This document shows positions 25,910 through 35,358 of a stretch of 36,564 bases of DNA, piece after piece. The position numbers and the translations under genes were made by a program. Each line of letters begins with the position of its first letter. Positions within the stretch are counted from its first letter, which is position 1. The notes beneath the pieces are model-generated. The model had not been told where the DNA came from. It saw only the letters and a program-made list of their open reading frames with translations, and made no database searches. This DNA is from Aliarcobacter sp. (GTDB lineage: Bacteria > Campylobacterota > Campylobacteria > Campylobacterales > Arcobacteraceae): the NCBI GenBank assembly GCA_017995775.1, contig JAGOIF010000014.1:1-36564 (forward strand), in the 5' to 3' direction.

Positions 25910-26266
25910 TTAAGCTTCTTTGCCTATACTTAACATATAAGCTTTTAATTGCATCATTTCTTGAGTTGGATATTGATTTTCAACATTTGCTCGCTCTACT
26001 TTTACAAAAAAATCTTTTGAGCTATCGTTGTAACCAAAATTTGTATTACTTAAAACTACTTCATATTTTGGAGCAGATGATGAATCATTCTTAACTTCTT
26101 TTACATCTGACGTTTTTTTCTCTTCAGCAATAACTTCTTGCTGTATTTGTTTTAGTTCATTTTTATTTTTAATCTCTGAAGAATCTTTAGAAGATTGCAC
26201 TCTTTGCACTTCTACAGAGCTATTATCAACAAATTGGCTTAGTTTTGCAACTGTTCCATATTCCAT
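25910..26266 (-). CDS. Small FlaG-like protein (tentative)
   Basis: A 118-residue protein. Residues 15-70 are polar and low in complexity (Ser, Lys, Glu, Gln), likely disordered. The last 45 residues form a small domain: VVLSNTNFGYNDSSKDFFVK, then VERANVENQYPTQEMMQLKAYML. This has the shape of the FlaG C-terminal domain (a strand, a basic-hydrophobic strand VKV, then IPxEExLxL), but the identity is weak and FlaG is only a suggestion. No signal peptide or TM segment. The ATG has AAGGAG 6 nt upstream. It is divergent from the first CNNM-type gene, and its SD region is mirrored there. Confidence 0.5.
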   Translation of the reverse strand: MEYGTVAKLSQFVDNSSVEVQRVQSSKDSSEIKNKNELKQIQQEVIAEEKKTSDVKEVKNDSSSAPKYEVVLSNTNFGYNDSSKDFFVKVERANVENQYPTQEMMQLKAYMLSIGKEA

Positions 26267-26407
26267 AGTAAACTCCTTATTCGAAATTTATGTTTATTTA
26301 CATGTATTATACTAGAAAAACCTATTGTTTGTCAAAATATCAAACTATTAAGATTATTTTGATATTATTAGCTATATTTATTAATAAAAGAAGGAGTTTA
26401 CTTGGAA
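26261..26407. repeat. Inverted repeat flanking the divergent promoter region
   Basis: AGTAAACTCCTT at 26267-26278 is the exact reverse complement of AAGGAGTTTACT at 26391-26402. The match extends by TTCC/GGAA after one unmatched base. The 112-nt spacer (26279-26390) holds the promoters of both divergent genes. The arms include both SD sequences, which explains half of the identity. Inside the spacer AATATCAAA (26336-26344) and TTTGATATT (26358-26366) form another 9-bp inverted repeat that runs into the -10 box of the CNNM-type gene. Confidence 0.45.
26360..26368 (+). promoter_or_regulatory. Extended -10 promoter of the first leader/CNNM unit
   Basis: TGATATTAT (26360-26368) is an extended -10 element. 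Expected transcription begins near 26375, so the leader ORF at 26402 is the first coding element on the mRNA. One arm of a 9-bp inverted repeat overlaps the -10 hexamer, so a repressor could act here. Confidence 0.45.
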
Positions 26408-26461
26408 GATAATTCCCCAAGGCGTAGCTTATTAAGAAGTGAGAATAAATGGAAATTTTAA
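26402..26461 (+). CDS. Leader peptide ORF upstream of CNNM-type transporter (19 codons)
   Basis: A TTG-started ORF with a perfect SD (AAGGAG at 26391-26396, 5 nt away) encodes MEDNSPRRSLLRSENKWKF and stops 10 nt inside the transporter gene. The transporter ATG has only a weak SD of its own, so coupling to leader translation is likely. The tandem arginines are AGG-CGT, unusual in this AGA-rich genome. An acidic N-terminus followed by PRR recalls enterobacterial MgtL ([17 protein letters not shown]). A second, related leader precedes the paralogous gene at 33042-34118. Function is inferred; that it is translated is strongly suggested by the SD. Confidence 0.6.
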   Translation: MEDNSPRRSLLRSENKWKF

Positions 26462-27492
26462 TCTTACTATTTATTGTAGTTATTGGTACGTCGTTTTTGT
26501 GTTCTGTTTTAGAGTCTGTTTTACTATCTACAAACATGTCTTATATTTCTGTCTTAGAAAAAAACAATCCTGTTGCTGGAAAATTGTTAAAAAAATTAAA
26601 AATTGATATTGATAAGTCTATTGCATCAATACTTATTTTAAATACTATTGCTAACACTTTAGGTGCAACTGCAATTGGAGTTCAAGCTCAAAGTGTTTTT
26701 GAAGGTCATGCTACTTTTGTAATGCTTATTTCAATAATACTTACATTTATGATTTTATTTTTTGCAGAAATTATTCCTAAAACAATTGGTGCAGTTCATT
26801 GGAAAAAGCTTGCTCCATATGCTCCAAGAATAATAAATATTTTTATATTTATCACCTATCCTATTATAATCATAACTCAGTTTGTTACAAAAAAAATAGG
26901 AAAAGAAAACACTGATGCAATTTCAAGGGAAGAATTACTTCACTCTACACTTTTAAGTGAAGAAGAAGGAATTATTGGAGATTTAGAATCACAAATTATT
27001 GAAAATACTCTTACATTAAACAATATAAAGTTAAAAGATATTTTAACACCTAGATCTGTTGTTTATGCGGTTGAAAAAAACACTCCTATGTCTGTAATCT
27101 TAGAAGATAAAAGAACTATTAAGTTTTCAAGGGTTCCTATTTATGAAGGACATATTGATAATATAGTTGGAATCGTTTTAACTAAGAAGATATTTAAACA
27201 AGCACTTAATGATAGTAATAAAACAATAGAAGATTTAATGAAACCAGTATTTTCATTACATGAAAATATACATGTTGCAAAAGCTTTAAATATGTTTATT
27301 CAAAAAAAAGAGCATATGTTTGTTGTTCATGATTCTTATAATCAAACAGAAGGTATTGTGACATTAGAAGATTGTATTGAAACCCTTTTAGGGCGTGAAA
27401 TTATGGATGAACTTGATACAACTGCTGATATGAGAAAACTAGCTTTAAATAAAATGAAAGCAAAAAGAAAAGAGAAAGAAAAAGAAGCTTAA
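26449..27492 (+). CDS. CNNM/CorC-family (DUF21 plus CBS) membrane protein, probable Mg2+ transporter
   Basis: A 347-residue protein. A DUF21/CNNM transmembrane domain fills about 1-150, with N-terminal TM1 (LLFIVVIGTSFLCSVLESVLLS) and the signature FAEIIPKTIGAVHW. A pair of CBS domains lies at about 195-315 (KDILTPRSVVYAVE; EGIVTLEDCIETLLG). It ends with a basic tail and lacks the C-terminal CorC_HlyC domain. CNNM/CorC proteins move Mg2+, usually out of the cell, with CBS domains sensing Mg-ATP. The older label 'hemolysin' is misleading. A paralogue lies at 33042-34118. It is preceded by an overlapping leader ORF and followed 26 nt later by the ATPase gene. Confidence 0.88.
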   Translation: MEILILLFIVVIGTSFLCSVLESVLLSTNMSYISVLEKNNPVAGKLLKKLKIDIDKSIASILILNTIANTLGATAIGVQAQSVFEGHATFVMLISIILTFMILFFAEIIPKTIGAVHWKKLAPYAPRIINIFIFITYPIIIITQFVTKKIGKENTDAISREELLHSTLLSEEEGIIGDLESQIIENTLTLNNIKLKDILTPRSVVYAVEKNTPMSVILEDKRTIKFSRVPIYEGHIDNIVGIVLTKKIFKQALNDSNKTIEDLMKPVFSLHENIHVAKALNMFIQKKEHMFVVHDSYNQTEGIVTLEDCIETLLGREIMDELDTTADMRKLALNKMKAKRKEKEKEA

Positions 27493-27518
27493 CTAAGCAT
27501 TTAAAATAAAGGTTTGTT

Positions 27519-29894
27519 ATGAATACTACAATTGATTATGAAAAATTAAAACTTTTTTATATTGGAAAAGAAGAGACTTCAAAAGATGTTTATACTCCTT
27601 TAGTTTATAAAAACAAAGATTTATTAACCCATGCTGCTATTATTGGAATGACAGGAAGTGGTAAAACAGGACTTGGAATTTCACTTTTAGAAGAAGCAGC
27701 AATTGATAATATTCCTTCAATTATCATTGATCCAAAAGGTGATATGACAAATTTACTTCTTACTTTTCCACAACTTCAAGGAAGTGATTTTGAACCTTGG
27801 ATTGAAGAACAAGATGCTATAAATAATGGTTTAACAGTAAAAGAACATGCGCAAAATACTGCAAAACTTTGGGAAAAAGGAATTCAAGAAGATTTTCAAA
27901 GTAAAGAAAGAATTCAAAAACTAAAAGATTCAGCTGATTTTACTATTTATACTCCAGGAAGCACAGCAGGTGTTCAAATATCAATTCTTTCATCTTTTAA
28001 AGCACCAGCGCGTGAAATATTAGAAGATAATGATTTATTAGTTTCACTAATTAACTCAACAGTTTCTTCAATACTTTCTTTAATAGAAGAAAAAAATGAC
28101 TCAATTTCAAAGGAGAGTATTTTAATATCTTCTATTTTTATGAACTATTATACAGCGGGAAAAGATATATCTTTAGAGCAGTTAATTTCACTAATTGTAA
28201 GCCCTCCTTTTGAAAAAGTTGGAGTTTTTGATTTAGAAACATTTTTTGCACAAGATGATAGATTAAAACTAGCTCTTAAATTAAATACAATTATTGCAAG
28301 TCCCTCTTTTAAAACTTGGATTGAAGGGGAAGTTTTAGATATTTCAAATCTTCTTTATGATGAATCTGGAAAAGCAAAGGTTTCTATTTTTTCTATTGCT
28401 CATTTAAATGATTCACAAAGAATGTTTTTTGTTTCAATATTATTAAACCAAATGGTTTCTTGGATGAGAAGACAAGAAGGAACAACATCTTTAAAAGCTT
28501 TATTATATATGGATGAGATTTTTGGATATTTCCCTCCATCTTCAAATCCTCCTTCAAAACAACCTATGCTTACACTCTTAAAACAAGCAAGATCTTTTGG
28601 TGTTGGTATTATTTTATCAACACAAAATCCTGTTGATATAGATTATAAAGGTTTAGCAAATATTGGAACTTGGTTTATAGGAAGACTTCAAACTAAACAA
28701 GATAAAGAAAAAGTAATAGATGGATTAAGTTCAGCAAACGATGGAAATCTTGATAAAACTCAATTACTAAATCTTTTATCAAACTTAGAAAAAAGAACTT
28801 TTATTTTAAAAAATATAAATGAAGAAGGAATAAAAGTATTTAAAACAAGATGGGCACTTTCATATTTAAAAGGTCCACTTCCTAGTGATTCTATAAAAAA
28901 GTTAATGGCACATAAGATTAAAAACTTCTCTACCAATCCAAGTATTAATAAACAAGAAGAAACAATAAAAATACAACCGCCAGTAAAAATTGAACAAAGT
29001 GTAAAACCTATTTTAACCAGTTCAATAGCGCAAAAGTATTTATATTCTTCTCAAAATAATAGCTATTATTTACAAGGATATCTAGTGTTTTCTTGTAATA
29101 TTCACTATATAAATATTACAAAAGGAATCGATTTACAAGAAAATCAATCATTTAGAATTTATTTAGATGAATCAATGAATTCTATTGATTTTGAAGAAAA
29201 AGAAGAGTTCAATAATACTTCTTTTGAAGAGAAAGAAAGACCAAATTCATCTTATTATCCCCTTCCTTCTTTTATTCAAAATGAAAAATCTTTAAAATTA
29301 ATTGAAAAAGATTTTGTTGATTATATGTATAGAAATGCAAAATTAACTTTATATAAAAATGATGTTTTAAAAATCGTTTCAAAACAAGATGAAACATTAA
29401 ATGATTTTAAAATTAGACTACAAGATAGATTAAATGAAAAAACCGATGATGAGCTTGAGAAACTTCAATTAAAATTTAAAAAAGATAATGATTTAATAGA
29501 AAACAAACTTTCAAAACTTCTTGAAAAATTAGAAAAAGAACAAACACAAGCAACATCAACTACAACGGATACAATCATTGCAATTGGAACTTCTTTATTG
29601 GGAGCTTTTTTTGGTAATTCTTTACTTAATAAAACCAATATAGGAAAAGTAGCTACAACTGCTCGAGGTGCAAGTAAGATATTAAAAGAAAGAAATGATG
29701 TAAAGTATGTGGAAGAAGAAATTTCTCAACTTAAAAAACAAAGTTTTGATCTTCAACAAATTTTAGAAAATGAAATAGAAAAAATCAATAATACAAATGC
29801 AAGCTCAAACTATGAGATTGAAGAGATATTTATAAAACCAAAACGAAGTGATATTTATAATACAAAATTAGAATTACTTTGGAAAGAACAATAA
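27519..29894 (+). CDS. HerA/FtsK-like P-loop ATPase (DUF87/DUF853 type)
   Basis: A 791-residue ATPase of unknown biological role. Walker A is GMTGSGKT (43-50). IIIDPKGDMTNLL follows. Walker B is LLYMDEIFGYFPP (about 330-342). STQNPVDIDYKGLANIGTWF and GRLQT are the sensor segments of HerA-like hexameric translocases. The C-terminal third differs: a beta-rich region (about 505-590), a long coiled coil (about 640-680 and 725-760), and between them a hydrophobic Gly-rich stretch (TIIAIGTSLLGAFFGNSLL) that may touch membrane. Such proteins may pump DNA or serve in membrane remodelling. No nuclease partner (NurA) is adjacent. AAAGG lies 6 nt before the ATG. Confidence 0.8.
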   Translation: MNTTIDYEKLKLFYIGKEETSKDVYTPLVYKNKDLLTHAAIIGMTGSGKTGLGISLLEEAAIDNIPSIIIDPKGDMTNLLLTFPQLQGSDFEPWIEEQDAINNGLTVKEHAQNTAKLWEKGIQEDFQSKERIQKLKDSADFTIYTPGSTAGVQISILSSFKAPAREILEDNDLLVSLINSTVSSILSLIEEKNDSISKESILISSIFMNYYTAGKDISLEQLISLIVSPPFEKVGVFDLETFFAQDDRLKLALKLNTIIASPSFKTWIEGEVLDISNLLYDESGKAKVSIFSIAHLNDSQRMFFVSILLNQMVSWMRRQEGTTSLKALLYMDEIFGYFPPSSNPPSKQPMLTLLKQARSFGVGIILSTQNPVDIDYKGLANIGTWFIGRLQTKQDKEKVIDGLSSANDGNLDKTQLLNLLSNLEKRTFILKNINEEGIKVFKTRWALSYLKGPLPSDSIKKLMAHKIKNFSTNPSINKQEETIKIQPPVKIEQSVKPILTSSIAQKYLYSSQNNSYYLQGYLVFSCNIHYINITKGIDLQENQSFRIYLDESMNSIDFEEKEEFNNTSFEEKERPNSSYYPLPSFIQNEKSLKLIEKDFVDYMYRNAKLTLYKNDVLKIVSKQDETLNDFKIRLQDRLNEKTDDELEKLQLKFKKDNDLIENKLSKLLEKLEKEQTQATSTTTDTIIAIGTSLLGAFFGNSLLNKTNIGKVATTARGASKILKERNDVKYVEEEISQLKKQSFDLQQILENEIEKINNTNASSNYEIEEIFIKPKRSDIYNTKLELLWKEQ

Positions 29895-29896
29895 AA

Positions 29897-30391
29897 ATGG
29901 CAAAAAACCTAGATGAATTTTTAGAACCTTTAAAAAGTCTTACAATAAGCTCTCTAGATGAAAAAGGACTTCCTTTTACATCTTATGCGCCTTTTGTGAA
30001 ATATGAGCATAAATACTATGTTTATTTGTCTTTAATGGCAAAACATTCAAGCAATCTTACTCAAAATAAAATAGCTTCAATTTTCTTTTGTGAAGATGAA
30101 GAAAATTGTAAAAACATTTTTGCAAAAAAAAGAGTATCAATTCAATGTGAAACTTCAAAACTAGAACAAAAAACAGTTAAAGAAGAAGAAATACTAAATG
30201 AATTCAAAAATAAATTTGGTAATGAAATGGTAAATATGCTTTATAAAATGGGTGATTTTTATCTTTTTGAATTCACACCTTTTTATGGAGAAGCTGTTTT
30301 TGGGTTTGGACAAGCTTACAATCTTGGTGGAGAAAACTTTGAAGAGTTTGTACAAAGACAAAATATACAAAATACAGGTCATGGTAAATAA
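29897..30391 (+). CDS. HugZ-like haem-binding split-barrel protein (PNPOx family)
   Basis: A 164-residue split-barrel protein of the pyridoxamine-phosphate-oxidase superfamily, close to HugZ/ChuZ haem oxygenases of Helicobacter and Campylobacter. Typical segments are TISSLDEKGLPFTSYAPFV, CEDEENCKNIFAKKR, and FYLFEFTPFYGEAVFGFGQAY. The C-terminal NTGHGK resembles the His-containing tail that binds haem in HugZ. At 164 residues it lacks the N-terminal extension of the 250-residue forms. I chose the ATG at 29897. The TTG at 29879 lies inside the ATPase gene. Release of iron from haem is the likely role; flavin binding is possible. Confidence 0.75.
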   Translation: MAKNLDEFLEPLKSLTISSLDEKGLPFTSYAPFVKYEHKYYVYLSLMAKHSSNLTQNKIASIFFCEDEENCKNIFAKKRVSIQCETSKLEQKTVKEEEILNEFKNKFGNEMVNMLYKMGDFYLFEFTPFYGEAVFGFGQAYNLGGENFEEFVQRQNIQNTGHGK

Positions 30392-30397
30392 TATATA

Positions 30398-31066
30398 TTG
30401 GAAAAATTGCAAGAACCTGAAAACAGAGAAATATGTTACGAATGTTATAGACCAAAATCCTCTTGTATCTGTAAATTTACCACAAGCCCTATAAAAACAA
30501 ATACGAAATTTGTTATTTTAATGCATCCAAAAGAGTTTAGAAAAACAAAAAATGGAACAGGTCATATGACTAATAACTCTTTGGAAAATTGTGAGTTACA
30601 TGTGGGAATTGATTTTTCAAATCATAAAAGAGTAAATGAGCTTTTAAACGATGAAAATTATGAACCATATGTTTTATATCCTGATGTTAATAGTATAAAA
30701 TTAAATACTCAAAAACTCAACACTCTGAAAAAACCTTTAATATTTATTATTGATTCAACTTGGCCATGTTCTAAAAAAATTTTAAGACTTAGTACAAATT
30801 TACAAGAATTAAAAAAAGTTAGTTTTGATCATAATAAATCATCACAATTTAAAATAAAAACCCAACCAAATGAATATTGTTTATCAACAATTGAATCAAC
30901 TTTATGTGTTTTAGAACAACTAAATTTTCATAAAACAGAAAATATTTCTAAAGAATCTTTAGTTACTTTTTTGAATCCTTTTGAGAAAATGGTAGACTCG
31001 CAATTAGAATATTGTTTACACGTTAAAAATATAAGATTCAAACCAGCTTATAAAAAATCCATTTAA
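30398..31066 (+). CDS. DTW-domain tRNA-uridine aminocarboxypropyltransferase
   Basis: A 222-residue DTW-domain protein. The N-terminal zinc site is CYECYRPKSSCIC (Cys13, 16, 23, 25). IDSTWPCSKK carries the DTW-type motif, followed by PNEYCLSTIES, the SAM-site helix. Members transfer the aminocarboxypropyl group of SAM to uridine in tRNA (acp3U, as by TapT and DTWD1/2). The only start in this frame after the in-frame stop at 30389 is TTG at 30398 (or 30407). The SD is weak, so translation may depend on the gene before it, which ends 6 nt upstream. Confidence 0.85.
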   Translation: MEKLQEPENREICYECYRPKSSCICKFTTSPIKTNTKFVILMHPKEFRKTKNGTGHMTNNSLENCELHVGIDFSNHKRVNELLNDENYEPYVLYPDVNSIKLNTQKLNTLKKPLIFIIDSTWPCSKKILRLSTNLQELKKVSFDHNKSSQFKIKTQPNEYCLSTIESTLCVLEQLNFHKTENISKESLVTFLNPFEKMVDSQLEYCLHVKNIRFKPAYKKSI

Positions 31067-31190
31067 TCCTTACATAATAGCCCTCTTTTAAGCTTTTATT
31101 TAGAAAAAATATCTTTTATTATGACTTTTAACCATAATTTGGGTATTTTAAATAAATTAAAAGCACTTTGATTATCATGGAGATTATTTT

Positions 31191-32999
31191 ATGAATAAAC
31201 TATTGTTTATTGTTGTTATTTTTGCTGTATTTAATAATTATTTATCGGCAAATAATATGGAAGATGAAAGAATAAAAAAAGAAAAAACTTTTGTCAATGA
31301 AGATATAAAAAAAATATTGAAAAATATTTTAGAAAAAGAGTATCAATCTCTTTTAATTAATAAAAGTATTTTAAAAGATTATTACAAGCAAAATGATTTT
31401 AACACTTATTGGGTGGAAGAGGAAAAAGGTCTAAAGGATATTGCCCTTTCACTTATTGAAAAAATTAAAAATGACCCCGTTTTAAAGCCTAAAGTAAATA
31501 ATATTTTTAAATTAGATGAAATTACAGGAAAAATAAATTCTATTGACAAATCAAAAAAAGAAGATTTATTTACTGCTGATTTTATGTTAACAGAACTATA
31601 TGATAAATATATGTTTTATCTTTTACAAGGTTCAATAAATTGGAAACTTTTTGAAGAAAAACTTTCTTTAATTGAAAAAGAAACAGAAATAAAATCACAT
31701 TGGGATAGATATAGTTTAATCAAAAATCCTAAATTATTATTAAAAAAGGCAATTGAAGAAGATACTTTAACAAATGTATTTAAAGAAGTTGATTTTAATT
31801 ATCCAAATGCAGAAAAATTAATTTCTGCAATAGATAGTTTAGAAAAAATATCACAAAATGGTGGTTATACAAAATTACCAGAAATAAAAAGTCTAAGACT
31901 TGGTGATTCTTCTGATGTTGTAAAAGTTTTAAGAGCAAGACTAGCTCAAAGCCAAGATTTAACAAAAATTTGTGAAGGAAGTGTTGTTGTACAAAATATT
32001 GTTACAAATACAACAGCACCTTTAAGCACACAAACTGAAAATTCTTCAAATGAAAATTTAGCGACTTTAGAAACTCAAACAAGCGAAGAAACTATTCCAT
32101 GTGAGAATTATTTTGATGAAGATTTAAAAACAGCTGTAATCTCTTTTCAAAAAAACCATGGTTTATATGCAGATGGAATAGTAGGAAGTTGGACTCAAAA
32201 ATTTTTAAATACAAGTGCTGAGGAAAAAATAGAACAAATCAGATTAAATCTTGAAAGAATGAGATGGCTTCCAAGAGATTTAGGAGAAAAATATTTACTT
32301 GTAAATATTCCTGAATTTAGACTAAGAATGGTTGAAAATGATGCAATTAAATTAAGTATGAACGTGGTTGTGGGAGAAAAAAAACACCCTACTCCTATTT
32401 TCTCAGATAAAATGTCATACGTTGTTTTAAACCCAACATGGAATATTCCTCATAGTATTACGAAAAAAGAAATTATTCCAAAACTAATTAAAGATCCAAA
32501 TTATTTAGCTTCTAAAGGAATTGATATTTATGAATCTTGGAATCCTGATTCTGAGAAAATGAATACAAAAGATATTATTGATGCATTTATTTTAGAAGAT
32601 GTGAGTTCTATGCCAAACTTTAGATTAACACAAAGTCCAAGCTCTGAAAATCCACTTGGAAGAATGAAATTTATGTTCCCAAATAAACACGCTGTTTATT
32701 TTCATGATACACCTGCAAAAAGCCTATTTGGAAATGCTAGAAGAGCTTATTCTCATGGATGTATAAGACTTGCTAAACCTAATGAATTATTAAGTGCAAT
32801 AGCTCAAGAAGATAAAAGTTTAAATCCAGAAAGAATAGATTCTATTTTAAAGAATGAAAGTGAAAAAGCTTTAGGATTAAGTAAAAAGATTCCAGTTCAT
32901 ATAGTTTATTTAACATCATGGGTTGATGAAGAAGGACAATTACAATTTAGGGAAGATATTTATAATTACGATAATATTCAAAAGAAACTATTGTATTAA
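31191..32999 (+). CDS. L,D-transpeptidase, YcbB/LdtD-like
   Basis: A 602-residue exported enzyme that makes 3-3 crosslinks in peptidoglycan. Signal peptide at 1-20. A YcbB-type scaffold domain spans about 35-230. A peptidoglycan-binding domain (about 235-345, LRLGDSSDVVKVLRARL; FQKNHGLYADGIVGSWTQ) is interrupted by a Thr/Ser/Asn-rich loop flanked by two cysteines (KICEGS and IPCENY). The YkuD catalytic domain follows at about 365-560, with nucleophile Cys524 in SHGCIRL and the upstream HDTPAKSLFG. The size matches E. coli LdtD (615). GGAG lies 8 nt before the ATG. It appears monocistronic, with a terminator just after the stop. Confidence 0.92.
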   Translation: MNKLLFIVVIFAVFNNYLSANNMEDERIKKEKTFVNEDIKKILKNILEKEYQSLLINKSILKDYYKQNDFNTYWVEEEKGLKDIALSLIEKIKNDPVLKPKVNNIFKLDEITGKINSIDKSKKEDLFTADFMLTELYDKYMFYLLQGSINWKLFEEKLSLIEKETEIKSHWDRYSLIKNPKLLLKKAIEEDTLTNVFKEVDFNYPNAEKLISAIDSLEKISQNGGYTKLPEIKSLRLGDSSDVVKVLRARLAQSQDLTKICEGSVVVQNIVTNTTAPLSTQTENSSNENLATLETQTSEETIPCENYFDEDLKTAVISFQKNHGLYADGIVGSWTQKFLNTSAEEKIEQIRLNLERMRWLPRDLGEKYLLVNIPEFRLRMVENDAIKLSMNVVVGEKKHPTPIFSDKMSYVVLNPTWNIPHSITKKEIIPKLIKDPNYLASKGIDIYESWNPDSEKMNTKDIIDAFILEDVSSMPNFRLTQSPSSENPLGRMKFMFPNKHAVYFHDTPAKSLFGNARRAYSHGCIRLAKPNELLSAIAQEDKSLNPERIDSILKNESEKALGLSKKIPVHIVYLTSWVDEEGQLQFREDIYNYDNIQKKLLY

Positions 33000-33016
33000 T
33001 TCCTTTTGAATTTTTA

Positions 33017-33043
33017 AGAAGAAGAGATTAAATCTCTTCTTTT
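33017..33043. terminator. Hairpin terminator after the L,D-transpeptidase gene
   Basis: AAGAAGAGA (33019-33027) and TCTCTTCTT (33033-33041) pair around TTAAA, with extra A-T and G-U pairs outside, followed by TTAT on the + strand. It lies between two convergent genes and its right arm reaches the last codon region of the minus-strand CNNM-type gene. Confidence 0.6.
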
Positions 33044-34118
33044 ATACAAGTCTTATTTTTGCTACTCTTTTCTTTTCAACTAACATTTTATCTTGGAATT
33101 GTTTATTTTTATTTCTTGCAAATGCTTGCATATCTTCAACTTCATCCATTTCATCAACAATCTCAACACCTAATAGCGTTTCAATCGCATCTTCTAGCGT
33201 TACTACTCCACTTGTTTGCCCATAGTTATCTTGAACTATAAAAAGGTGAGTTTTTCTATTTATAAACTGATCAATCAGCGATGAAACAGGAACATTTTCA
33301 GATATTTTATGAACAGGAACTGTTATATCTAATAGAATTGTTTGGTCTTTCTCTTCAACGCTTTGTTCTAAAATATTTTGATTAAATACTATTCCTATTA
33401 CATCATCTATAGTATCTGTAAAGATTGGTATTCTTGAGTGAATATACATCTTATCCTCTTCAATAGCTTCTTCAACTGTAATATCTGATTTTAAAGCAAA
33501 TACAACGCTTCTTGGAGTCATAATATCTTTTGTTTTTATATTTTTTAATTTAAAAAGATTTTCAATTAACGCACTCTCTTTTGAAAGAATCGAACCTTCT
33601 TTTTCTCCCATTGTAACAGCTGCCATAATCTCATCTCTTGAAAAAGTTGACTCTTTTATTTTTCCTTTTGAAATCGCATTCGTAAGAAACATAGATATCC
33701 AAACAAGTGGATATAAAACTTTTATTAAAAAATTTATTATATACGCTGATGGAATTAACAATTTTTTCCAATAAATTGCACCGATTGTTTTTGGAATTAT
33801 TTCTGAAAAATAAAGAAGACAAAATGCTAAAATAATAGCAATTGTAGCTTCCATTTCTTGACCAAATAATATTTGTGATTGAGCACCAACACCGGCTGCT
33901 CCTAAAATAAGAACAAAATTATTTAAAATTAATATTGAAGATACTGATCTATTAGTATTAGATTTTAATTCCCTTAACATTTCTACGGTGTTTGAGTTCA
34001 TTGTCTTACTTAAAGATTCTATATAAGATGGTGTACTAGAAAGTAAAACTGCTTCTAGAATTGAACATAAAAAAGATACAAGTACGGCTACAAGAAGATA
34101 GGTAATTAAGAGGGTCAT
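33042..34118 (-). CDS. CNNM/CorC-family (DUF21 plus CBS) membrane protein, paralogue
   Basis: A 358-residue paralogue of the gene at 26449-27492 with the same layout: DUF21 domain (about 1-155, LVAVLVSFLCSILEAVLLSS; FSEIIPKTIGAIYW), CBS pair (about 195-320, KDIMTPRSVVFALK; SGVVTLEDAIETLLG), and no CorC_HlyC domain. Probable Mg2+ transport protein in the inner membrane. Its ATG overlaps the stop of a 21-codon leader ORF (ATGA), and no independent SD is obvious (only AAATGACC context with GGGG 11 nt upstream). Translation therefore likely depends on ribosomes finishing the leader. Two copies in one window, both with leaders, suggest differential regulation. Confidence 0.88.
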   Translation of the reverse strand: MTLLITYLLVAVLVSFLCSILEAVLLSSTPSYIESLSKTMNSNTVEMLRELKSNTNRSVSSILILNNFVLILGAAGVGAQSQILFGQEMEATIAIILAFCLLYFSEIIPKTIGAIYWKKLLIPSAYIINFLIKVLYPLVWISMFLTNAISKGKIKESTFSRDEIMAAVTMGEKEGSILSKESALIENLFKLKNIKTKDIMTPRSVVFALKSDITVEEAIEEDKMYIHSRIPIFTDTIDDVIGIVFNQNILEQSVEEKDQTILLDITVPVHKISENVPVSSLIDQFINRKTHLFIVQDNYGQTSGVVTLEDAIETLLGVEIVDEMDEVEDMQAFARNKNKQFQDKMLVEKKRVAKIRLV

Positions 34119-34180
34119 TTAGTAAGCCCCATATTTTGAGAATAATTTAAAACACGCCTACGGGAGTCGGTTAAATTCAT
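34115..34180 (-). CDS. Leader peptide ORF upstream of the CNNM paralogue (21 codons)
   Basis: ATG at 34180 with AGGA 8 nt upstream. The product starts MNLTDSRRRVLNYSQN and ends MGLTK. Its TGA overlaps the transporter ATG. It shares S-x-R-R-x-L with the leader at 26402, and the tandem arginines are again AGG-CGT at the matching position. It has one Asp but no Pro, so it is less like MgtL than the first leader. A promoter with TACAAT lies 31 nt upstream, so the leader is first on the transcript. Confidence 0.58.
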   Translation of the reverse strand: MNLTDSRRRVLNYSQNMGLTK

Positions 34181-34211
34181 TGATATAATCCTTTTAAAAA
34201 TTTTAAGGCGA

Positions 34212-34220
34212 ATTGTACCA
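34212..34220 (-). promoter_or_regulatory. Extended -10 promoter of the second leader/CNNM unit
   Basis: On the minus strand TGGTACAAT is an extended -10 (TGN plus TACAAT at 34217-34212). Transcription would start near 34205, giving a 5' UTR of about 25 nt before the leader ATG. It lies just downstream of the stop of the neighbouring minus-strand gene. Confidence 0.5.
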
Positions 34221-34224
34221 TATT

Positions 34225-35358
34225 TTATTTTATTAATGAGAAATTATTCAAAATATGTTTTATATTATCTATAGTTAAATGATGTTTTTCTTCTAATACT
34301 TTCATAAAAAATCTAACTTCTGCATTTGTAAATCCATCAAGTTCTTTGTCTTTTATTGAGACATTATTCTCTTCTAATCTGATTCTTTTTAGCTTTCCAT
34401 TCGTCTCTTTAGCATAATAAACTAAATCTAATTGAGTTTGATTAACCTTTTCAATAGTTACAATTACTTGATCAAACTTAGTTTTTAAATCAAAGTCCTT
34501 ATACAAAGTCAAAAATTCTTGGCTTGTTGTATATCCTATATAAAGTTTTGTATAAATATCAAAATAAAGCCCTAATTTAGCAGAGGAGAAGAATTTTAAA
34601 TCAACTGGAAACTTTGGGTTTTCTCTTGATTTATTTAAAATCCATTCTAATGTAGGAAAATATTGAAATTTATTATATTTAACTTTTAACGCTTCTATAA
34701 ATTTAGGATTTTTAGGAGCTTTTAAAGTTTGAATATCATTTTTAACTTTTTTTGCAAATATAATTTTTTCTATTAACTCTTCATCTTCTAAGTCATTTGT
34801 TAACCAAATAGTTGCGTATGCTGGGAAGTTTTTTAATCCAACTGAACCTTTTGTAACAACAATCAAAGCATTTATATTTAATGTTGGAAAAATCATTTTT
34901 AAAAGTGCGTACTTTTTTGCCAATCTTTTATTTAAGCTTGATGTTTTCTTGGAAGTACTCATTTCTACAAAGAATAATGAATCTTTTGTGAAAAACAAAG
35001 CATCAAATTCACTTATGTCTTTGTAAGCTGATTTGTAAACTATTTGAGAACTTCTATCTATTAAAAGTCCACTTTTAATATATAAATTTTCTTTATCTTG
35101 ATATGGACCTTTTAATACAAACCGTGTAATTTCAGGCTGTTCTTGTGCATATTGCATTAAAAGTTCATAAACAATATTTTCATAAACCTCGCCTTTAAAG
35201 CTACTATATGCTGAAATATATGAAATATCTTCTTTTGATGTATTATTTTTAACTAATGATTTTAGACTTTTACTATCGTATGAATAATGAAATAAATTCT
35301 CTTTTATATCGTGTATATCTAATTTTTTTATTTTATCTGTTATTATAAATTGATTCAA
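34225..35358 (-). CDS. Uncharacterised protein with a PD-(D/E)XK nuclease-like region
   Basis: A 377-residue soluble protein that I cannot assign to a named family. Residues 55-140 have the order of a PD-(D/E)XK core: a helix with KGEVYENIVYELL (Glu57 or Glu60), EFDALFF (Asp119), and LFFVEMSTSKK (Glu132). The motif Lys two residues after Glu132 is Ser134. Lys137 or Lys138 might substitute. The rest is mixed helix and strand, ending in a helical segment. Such cores occur in restriction and repair enzymes and in inactive relatives. The start is TTG at 35358, with a weak SD. A promoter and a repeated TATCTTAAG lie upstream. Confidence 0.65.
   Translation of the reverse strand: MNQFIITDKIKKLDIHDIKENLFHYSYDSKSLKSLVKNNTSKEDISYISAYSSFKGEVYENIVYELLMQYAQEQPEITRFVLKGPYQDKENLYIKSGLLIDRSSQIVYKSAYKDISEFDALFFTKDSLFFVEMSTSKKTSSLNKRLAKKYALLKMIFPTLNINALIVVTKGSVGLKNFPAYATIWLTNDLEDEELIEKIIFAKKVKNDIQTLKAPKNPKFIEALKVKYNKFQYFPTLEWILNKSRENPKFPVDLKFFSSAKLGLYFDIYTKLYIGYTTSQEFLTLYKDFDLKTKFDQVIVTIEKVNQTQLDLVYYAKETNGKLKRIRLEENNVSIKDKELDGFTNAEVRFFMKVLEEKHHLTIDNIKHILNNFSLIK

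Follow-up and report, generated by a model that had tools for sequence, protein, structure and literature searches.

Each of the two CNNM genes in the window, the 36,564-nucleotide stretch of Aliarcobacter sp. DNA that was analysed, is preceded by a short leader open reading frame (ORF) that overlaps the start of the gene and carries an island of rare codons close to its own beginning. Since the same arrangement recurs across the phylum, the leader probably controls the amount of exporter, a role played in E. coli by the yoaL leader for a different exporter. To our knowledge, how cation export is switched on in bacteria is poorly understood. The features of the two loci are as follows.

26363..26368, plus strand: putative -10 element TATTAT of a leader-CNNM-A transcript, conserved in sequence among orthologues.
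26391..26396, plus strand: Shine-Dalgarno sequence (SD) AAGGAG of leader A, from the sequence and computed anti-SD pairing.
26402..26461, plus strand: leader ORF A, TTG start, peptide LEDNSPRRSLLRSENKWKF then stop, overlapping the start of CNNM-A by 13 nt (TTG GAA GAT AAT TCC CCA AGG CGT AGC TTA TTA AGA AGT GAG AAT AAA TGG AAA TTT TAA).
26414..26425, plus strand: rare-codon core of leader A, TCC CCA AGG CGT, matching TCCCNNAGGCGT and assessed by the rarity test.
26449..27492, plus strand: CNNM-A gene, 347 aa, CNNM and CBS domains.
34212..34217, minus strand: putative -10 element TACAAT of a leader-CNNM-B transcript, TATAAT or similar in aligned orthologues and missed by the consensus scan.
34189..34195, minus strand: SD AAAAGGA of leader B, from the sequence, 8 bases before the start and conserved in orthologues.
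34115..34180, minus strand: leader ORF B, 21 codons, ATG start, peptide MNLTDSRRRVLNYSQNMGLTK then a TGA stop overlapping CNNM-B, conserved in orthologues (34180..34115: ATG AAT TTA ACC GAC TCC CGT AGG CGT GTT TTA AAT TAT TCT CAA AAT ATG GGG CTT ACT AAA TGA).
34154..34165, minus strand: rare-codon core of leader B, TCC CGT AGG CGT, matching TCCCNNAGGCGT and assessed by the rarity test.
33042..34118, minus strand: CNNM-B gene, 358 aa, CNNM and CBS domains.

The earlier note had described at CNNM-B a 21-codon leader with an SD, an ATGA overlap and an AGG-CGT pair, and had claimed a matching leader at the paralogue. Sequence and translation bore out the former: the last four bases, ATGA, hold both the TGA of the leader and the ATG of CNNM-B, and the tandem arginines are encoded CGT-AGG-CGT. 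The matching leader was found at 26402..26461; it has the string TCCCNNAGGCGT in common with leader B, and both are conserved in orthologues. This string occurs exactly twice in the 2.5-Mb genome, in leader A and leader B. Codons and leaders of the same genome were surveyed over 174 kb (127 genes, of which 121 were testable). The AGG-CGT pair, whose frequency in ordinary genes the note had wanted checked, is absent from them (0 in 42,811 codons), Arg-Arg pairs being AGA-AGA in 22 of 27 cases, and an SD-led short ORF overlaps the gene start at 3 of the 121 genes, namely both CNNM genes and one chance case. Together, these three observations exclude chance. The leader element is private to CNNM genes: a search of 104 genomes with the A core gave 39 matches, 31 of them CNNM leaders and the remaining 8 to be set against 6 in the chance control, all 13 matches to the B core were CNNM leaders, and neither search revealed other genes with the element above chance.

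The reading frame of the leaders is under selection in the orthologues. None of 48 distinct A leaders contained an in-frame stop, against 32 and 48 with stops in the other two frames; for 26 B and related leaders the corresponding counts were 0, 22 and 26. The distance from leader to ATG in the A type is 32, 44, 47, 50 or 53, and the phase is the same in all 46 measurable cases, so that sequence is gained or lost in whole codons.

Within this frame, conservation concerns the rare-codon island (TCC, AGG, CGT, TGC, CAG) and an acidic residue near the start, not the peptide as a whole. Ser5 of the A leaders is encoded by TCC in 42/42, although TCC makes up 1.8% of Ser codons. Over codons 2-12, AGG accounts for 35 of 54 Arg codons in the A leaders, AGA being 82% of Arg usage, and the B leaders contain 16 AGG, 19 CGT and no AGA. 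Mean log rarity was -2.18 at A codons 5-8 against -0.34 expected for the same amino acids, and -1.87 at B codons 5-10 against -0.37; the pooled z-scores (-28.6 and -17.9, respectively) overstate the significance because the leader sequences are related, and the window's own leaders alone give -3.9 (A) and -5.7 (B). The codons flanking the island are ordinary or only mildly rare in A and mildly to moderately rare in B. Codons 2-15 show 15 synonymous against 34 non-synonymous single-base changes. The third base is least variable in codons 2-5, which indicates that codon or nucleotide identity is held there, and codons 9-15, in the leader's second half, vary with roughly the freedom of neutral sequence. 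The tRNAs for TCC and TGC also read common codons, so these rare codons need not be slow, and a scan of parts of the genome revealed no tRNA genes for AGG. The strict identity of TCC and AGG could be a nucleotide signal of another kind.

An acidic residue at positions 2-6 is present in 79/79 leaders of the set compared with 28/87 ordinary N-termini, a count slightly biased by an A extraction pattern that favoured GAN or AAN as second codon. One A leader in the unbiased list (MKYCSYWY..) and one f7 candidate (LIIPRKN..) have no such residue. The peptide grammar of an acidic residue followed by R[R/C..] was found in 62/79 leaders and 0/87 ordinary N-termini. The earlier note had argued that the peptide or its codons are functional; the leaders are indeed real, conserved and functional-looking, and their codons matter, but the whole peptide is not conserved, its codons 9-15 being near neutral. 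The suggestion that P versus R tunes the two paralogues to different signals found no support, as the residue before AGG varies freely among orthologues (P, Q and R in A; Y, R, Q and N in B) and no two signal classes were seen.

The upstream DNA of about 110 CNNM genes was read in Arcobacteraceae, and leaders are present in most orthologues. Leader A stands before every A-type CNNM gene read in the family (48 distinct sequences, 47 of them with a TTG start), and leader B before most B copies of the window's genus and of genus g20 (MSSDRRC..). Leader B is not universal: part of the window's genus lacks it, and most CNNM-B genes of this subgroup are instead coupled by ATGA to a long gene upstream. 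In L028-L031, L033 and L058-L060 the CNNM-B start overlaps the stop of that gene (..EFKK then stop, AAAATGA), which replaces the leader. No leader precedes the third CNNM type of the family (start MLMLTYF or similar). Beyond Arcobacteraceae, CNNM genes with related leaders were found in at least five families, f5 (B type), f13, f19, f20 and f22, examples being MSDSSSKQRSF.., MSSSDSYNRRTS.., MNSSDYHRRC.., LSDPYSRREVKP and LDSYERYF... The A-type CNNM genes of f5 and many of f15 carry no leader ORF. For the E. coli CNNM genes paeA and yfjD, no overlapping leader is annotated, and reading of the upstream DNA revealed none that is clearly SD-led.

Both downstream genes match Pfam CNNM (E about 1e-26) and combine the CNNM membrane domain with a CBS domain, as expected of CNNM transporters; the nearest solved structures to CNNM-B are 7m1u/7m1t, hemolysin-type CBS proteins. 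CNNM-A and CNNM-B are thus probable cation/Mg2+ exporters, the substrate being assigned from the family. The enterobacterial relative PaeA exports polyamines. Two leaderless A-type CNNM genes checked by Pfam, from families f5 and f15 (L180 518..1708; L181 1477..149), follow directly on mgtE, which codes for a Mg2+ channel, and this supports a role in Mg2+ homeostasis.

Translational coupling between leader and CNNM is strongly suggested by the sequences, because the overlap has been retained, CNNM-A has a weaker SD than its leader, and lineages lacking the leader often have the gene coupled to an upstream one or, for the A type of other families, placed immediately after mgtE. Nearly every A and B leader overlaps the CNNM start, by ATGA in B and by 4-13 nt in most A, with the exception of the A leaders L062 and L074, which end 5 nt before the start of the reported match. 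The mean anti-SD pairing energy is -8.0 kcal/mol for the leader SD against -5.3 kcal/mol for that of CNNM-A. A good SD of the CNNM gene itself in some A orthologues, e.g. L064 and L075, counts against coupling.

On balance, we favour a cis-acting coupled leader, in which completed translation would feed ribosomes to the CNNM start and the early codon island would act as a throttle. A separate short transcript start would serve each CNNM gene, and behind it would come a mini-cistron with a stop that overlaps the CNNM start. Ribosomes would load at the leader SD, translate the leader, terminate where CNNM begins and start anew at that site, which would make CNNM output depend on the number of ribosomes finishing the leader. 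The early part of the leader, an acidic residue at positions 2-6 and then 4-6 rare codons, would throttle early elongation, and ribosomes may pause or drop off there. Given that the downstream gene probably exports Mg2+, the input is most likely the level of Mg2+ (or of total cations) acting through ribosome stability, which we put forward tentatively. With enough Mg2+, ribosomes would pass the throttle and exporter would be made; at low Mg2+ they would drop off and none would be made. The sign of this model fits an exporter, as high Mg2+ lets ribosomes finish the leader.

It is unlikely, though by no means far-fetched, that the mini-cistron only serves to bring ribosomes to a gene whose start signal is weak, without regulation, and that the rare codons merely space these ribosomes. 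Overlaps of the ATGA type are common in operons, coupling to a long upstream gene replaces the leader in part of the genus, and the leader evolves almost neutrally in its second half, all of which agrees with such plain supply. However, it leaves unexplained the family-wide keeping of TCC, AGG, YGY, the acidic residue at 2-6 and the TTG start (A), and also the near absence of such leaders from the other genes of the genome. That the peptide itself acts as a small protein, for example by binding the transporter, is very improbable: its N-terminal grammar is kept across families, but the leader peptides range from 11 to 32 aa, are hydrophilic without a membrane segment, are near neutral in their second half, and are encoded by ORFs that nearly always overlap the gene, as expected for action in cis.

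Sensing of arginine or of rare charged Arg tRNAs through AGG-CGT would account for the fact that the Arg codons are nearly all of rare types, and polyamine and Mg2+ homeostasis are linked. A precedent would be Salmonella speF, in which an upstream ORF with rare arginine codons reportedly mediates regulation by arginine through alternative mRNA conformations. The CNNM leaders have the rare arginine codons in common with speF, but they lack a supported structure and tolerate other residues at the Arg positions. In many orthologues Cys, His, Gln or Asn replaces the second Arg, so that no run of Arg codons is kept; AGG is absent from four A leaders of the window's genus (LEY.SR.., L111-L114), a related family carries Gln instead (MSDSSSKQR), and among the rare codons the best conserved one encodes Ser. 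An arginine attenuator is therefore improbable. We consider it hardly more credible that the conserved stretch is an RNA structure or a protein-binding element with an incidental open frame. The low variability of third positions in codons 2-5 would agree with this, and B leaders allow small CC..GG stems to be drawn, but these mini-stems are broken in several lineages. RNAalifold on 43 A and 16 B leaders gave no consensus better than shuffled columns, there was no Rfam match at gathering thresholds in 26200..34400 that would indicate a riboswitch, and the frame is never interrupted, its indels being multiples of three.

Several other readings of the overlap region were tried and rejected. For terminator-based attenuation, no terminator was found between leader and gene, which overlap. 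As for an internal SD of CNNM, many A leaders contain a GAGGTG that fits the anti-SD, but its distance to the CNNM start is about 24 nt, and the AGGCG variants match the anti-SD poorly. Fusion into CNNM by frameshifting is contradicted by stops in the CNNM frame in 48/48 A leaders, and no slippery heptamer is kept.

The closest known relatives of the CNNM leaders are YoaL-yoaE and MgtL-mgtA. High Mg2+ raises the expression of mgpA (yoaE) in Salmonella, and replacement of the YoaL start by a stop lowers MgpA/YoaE, by a mechanism that the authors left open (PMC12421838). E. coli YoaL (L117 5232..5074, minus strand) overlaps yoaE by 13 nt, as leader A does CNNM-A, and its start, MDRHRRHFS, presents an acidic residue and then Arg-Arg, like the CNNM leaders. 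The product of yoaE is a CorC-domain cation exporter with a TerC, not a CNNM, membrane domain, and YoaL has 52 aa compared with about 19-21 for the window's leaders. The likeness to leader A is one of anatomy, and homology is not claimed.

MgtL, the leader peptide at the enterobacterial Mg2+ transporter gene mgtA, resembles the CNNM leaders in its early acidic residues, and an Arg run follows its acidic part. At low Mg2+, ribosomes drop off in its EPDP (PMC11282234). It acts via Rho-dependent transcription termination, whereas the CNNM leaders leave no room for a terminator, and alternative RNA structures plus a terminator of the MgtL type were not seen in them. MgtL switches an importer on when translation fails, while coupling at the CNNM leaders predicts the opposite sign for an exporter. 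Paired acidic residues were counted in 32/47 A and 0/16 B leaders and Pro in 17/47 A and 0/16 B; as the B leaders lack the acidic-Pro signature, a single mechanism for A and B is not assured, and we claim a likeness in working principle rather than membership of the MgtL type. The IRD sequence at the N-terminus of E. coli CorC/YbeX has been proposed, as cited in PMC12421838, to control early elongation and so make a Mg2+-efflux protein Mg2+-dependent. It sits inside the protein, whereas the CNNM leaders are separate ORFs. It is a speculative possibility that the CNNM leaders form a phylum-wide, positive-sense Mg2+ gate, a codon and acidic throttle in a coupled mini-cistron that would allow the exporter to be made only at Mg2+ levels sufficient for completing the leader; it would be a mirror image of MgtL and would have arisen in parallel to YoaL.

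No publication describing CNNM-gene leaders in this phylum came up in our literature search, which fell short of most subscription journals, and novelty is provisional; the main text of a C. jejuni ribosome-profiling paper mentions no CNNM leader. A leader kept in about 50 Arcobacteraceae species, with related forms in further families of the order, offers a testable control point. It is unusual for a rare-codon island to be nearly invariant at synonymous sites, and this one makes sharp predictions for synonymous recoding. With MgtL and YoaL, the CNNM leaders suggest that early elongation of a leader may be a recurrent way to read cation levels.

Some further observations concern the neighbourhood of the leaders. 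A perfect sigma-70 promoter match (TTGACA, 18 nt, TATAAT) at 26335..26306 on the minus strand stands back to back with the CNNM-A leader and drives a divergent 118-aa ORF (25910..26266) without Pfam match. Upstream of CNNM-B lies a 377-aa ORF (34225..35358, minus strand), also without Pfam match, which is likewise the neighbour in the relative L183. The B-type CNNM genes of genus g15 (L023, L024, L025) have shorter and quite different leaders, MYEPSESTKSRVK, MYQTRKRTNKGLR and MTRYRLYNLHLFKK, each closed by a stop; the first two show the ATGA overlap with CNNM-B, like leader B. Genome G006 carries two CNNM-B copies (L016, L057), both with the identical leader MNSTDSYYRRTLNITFLGCKK and its stop.
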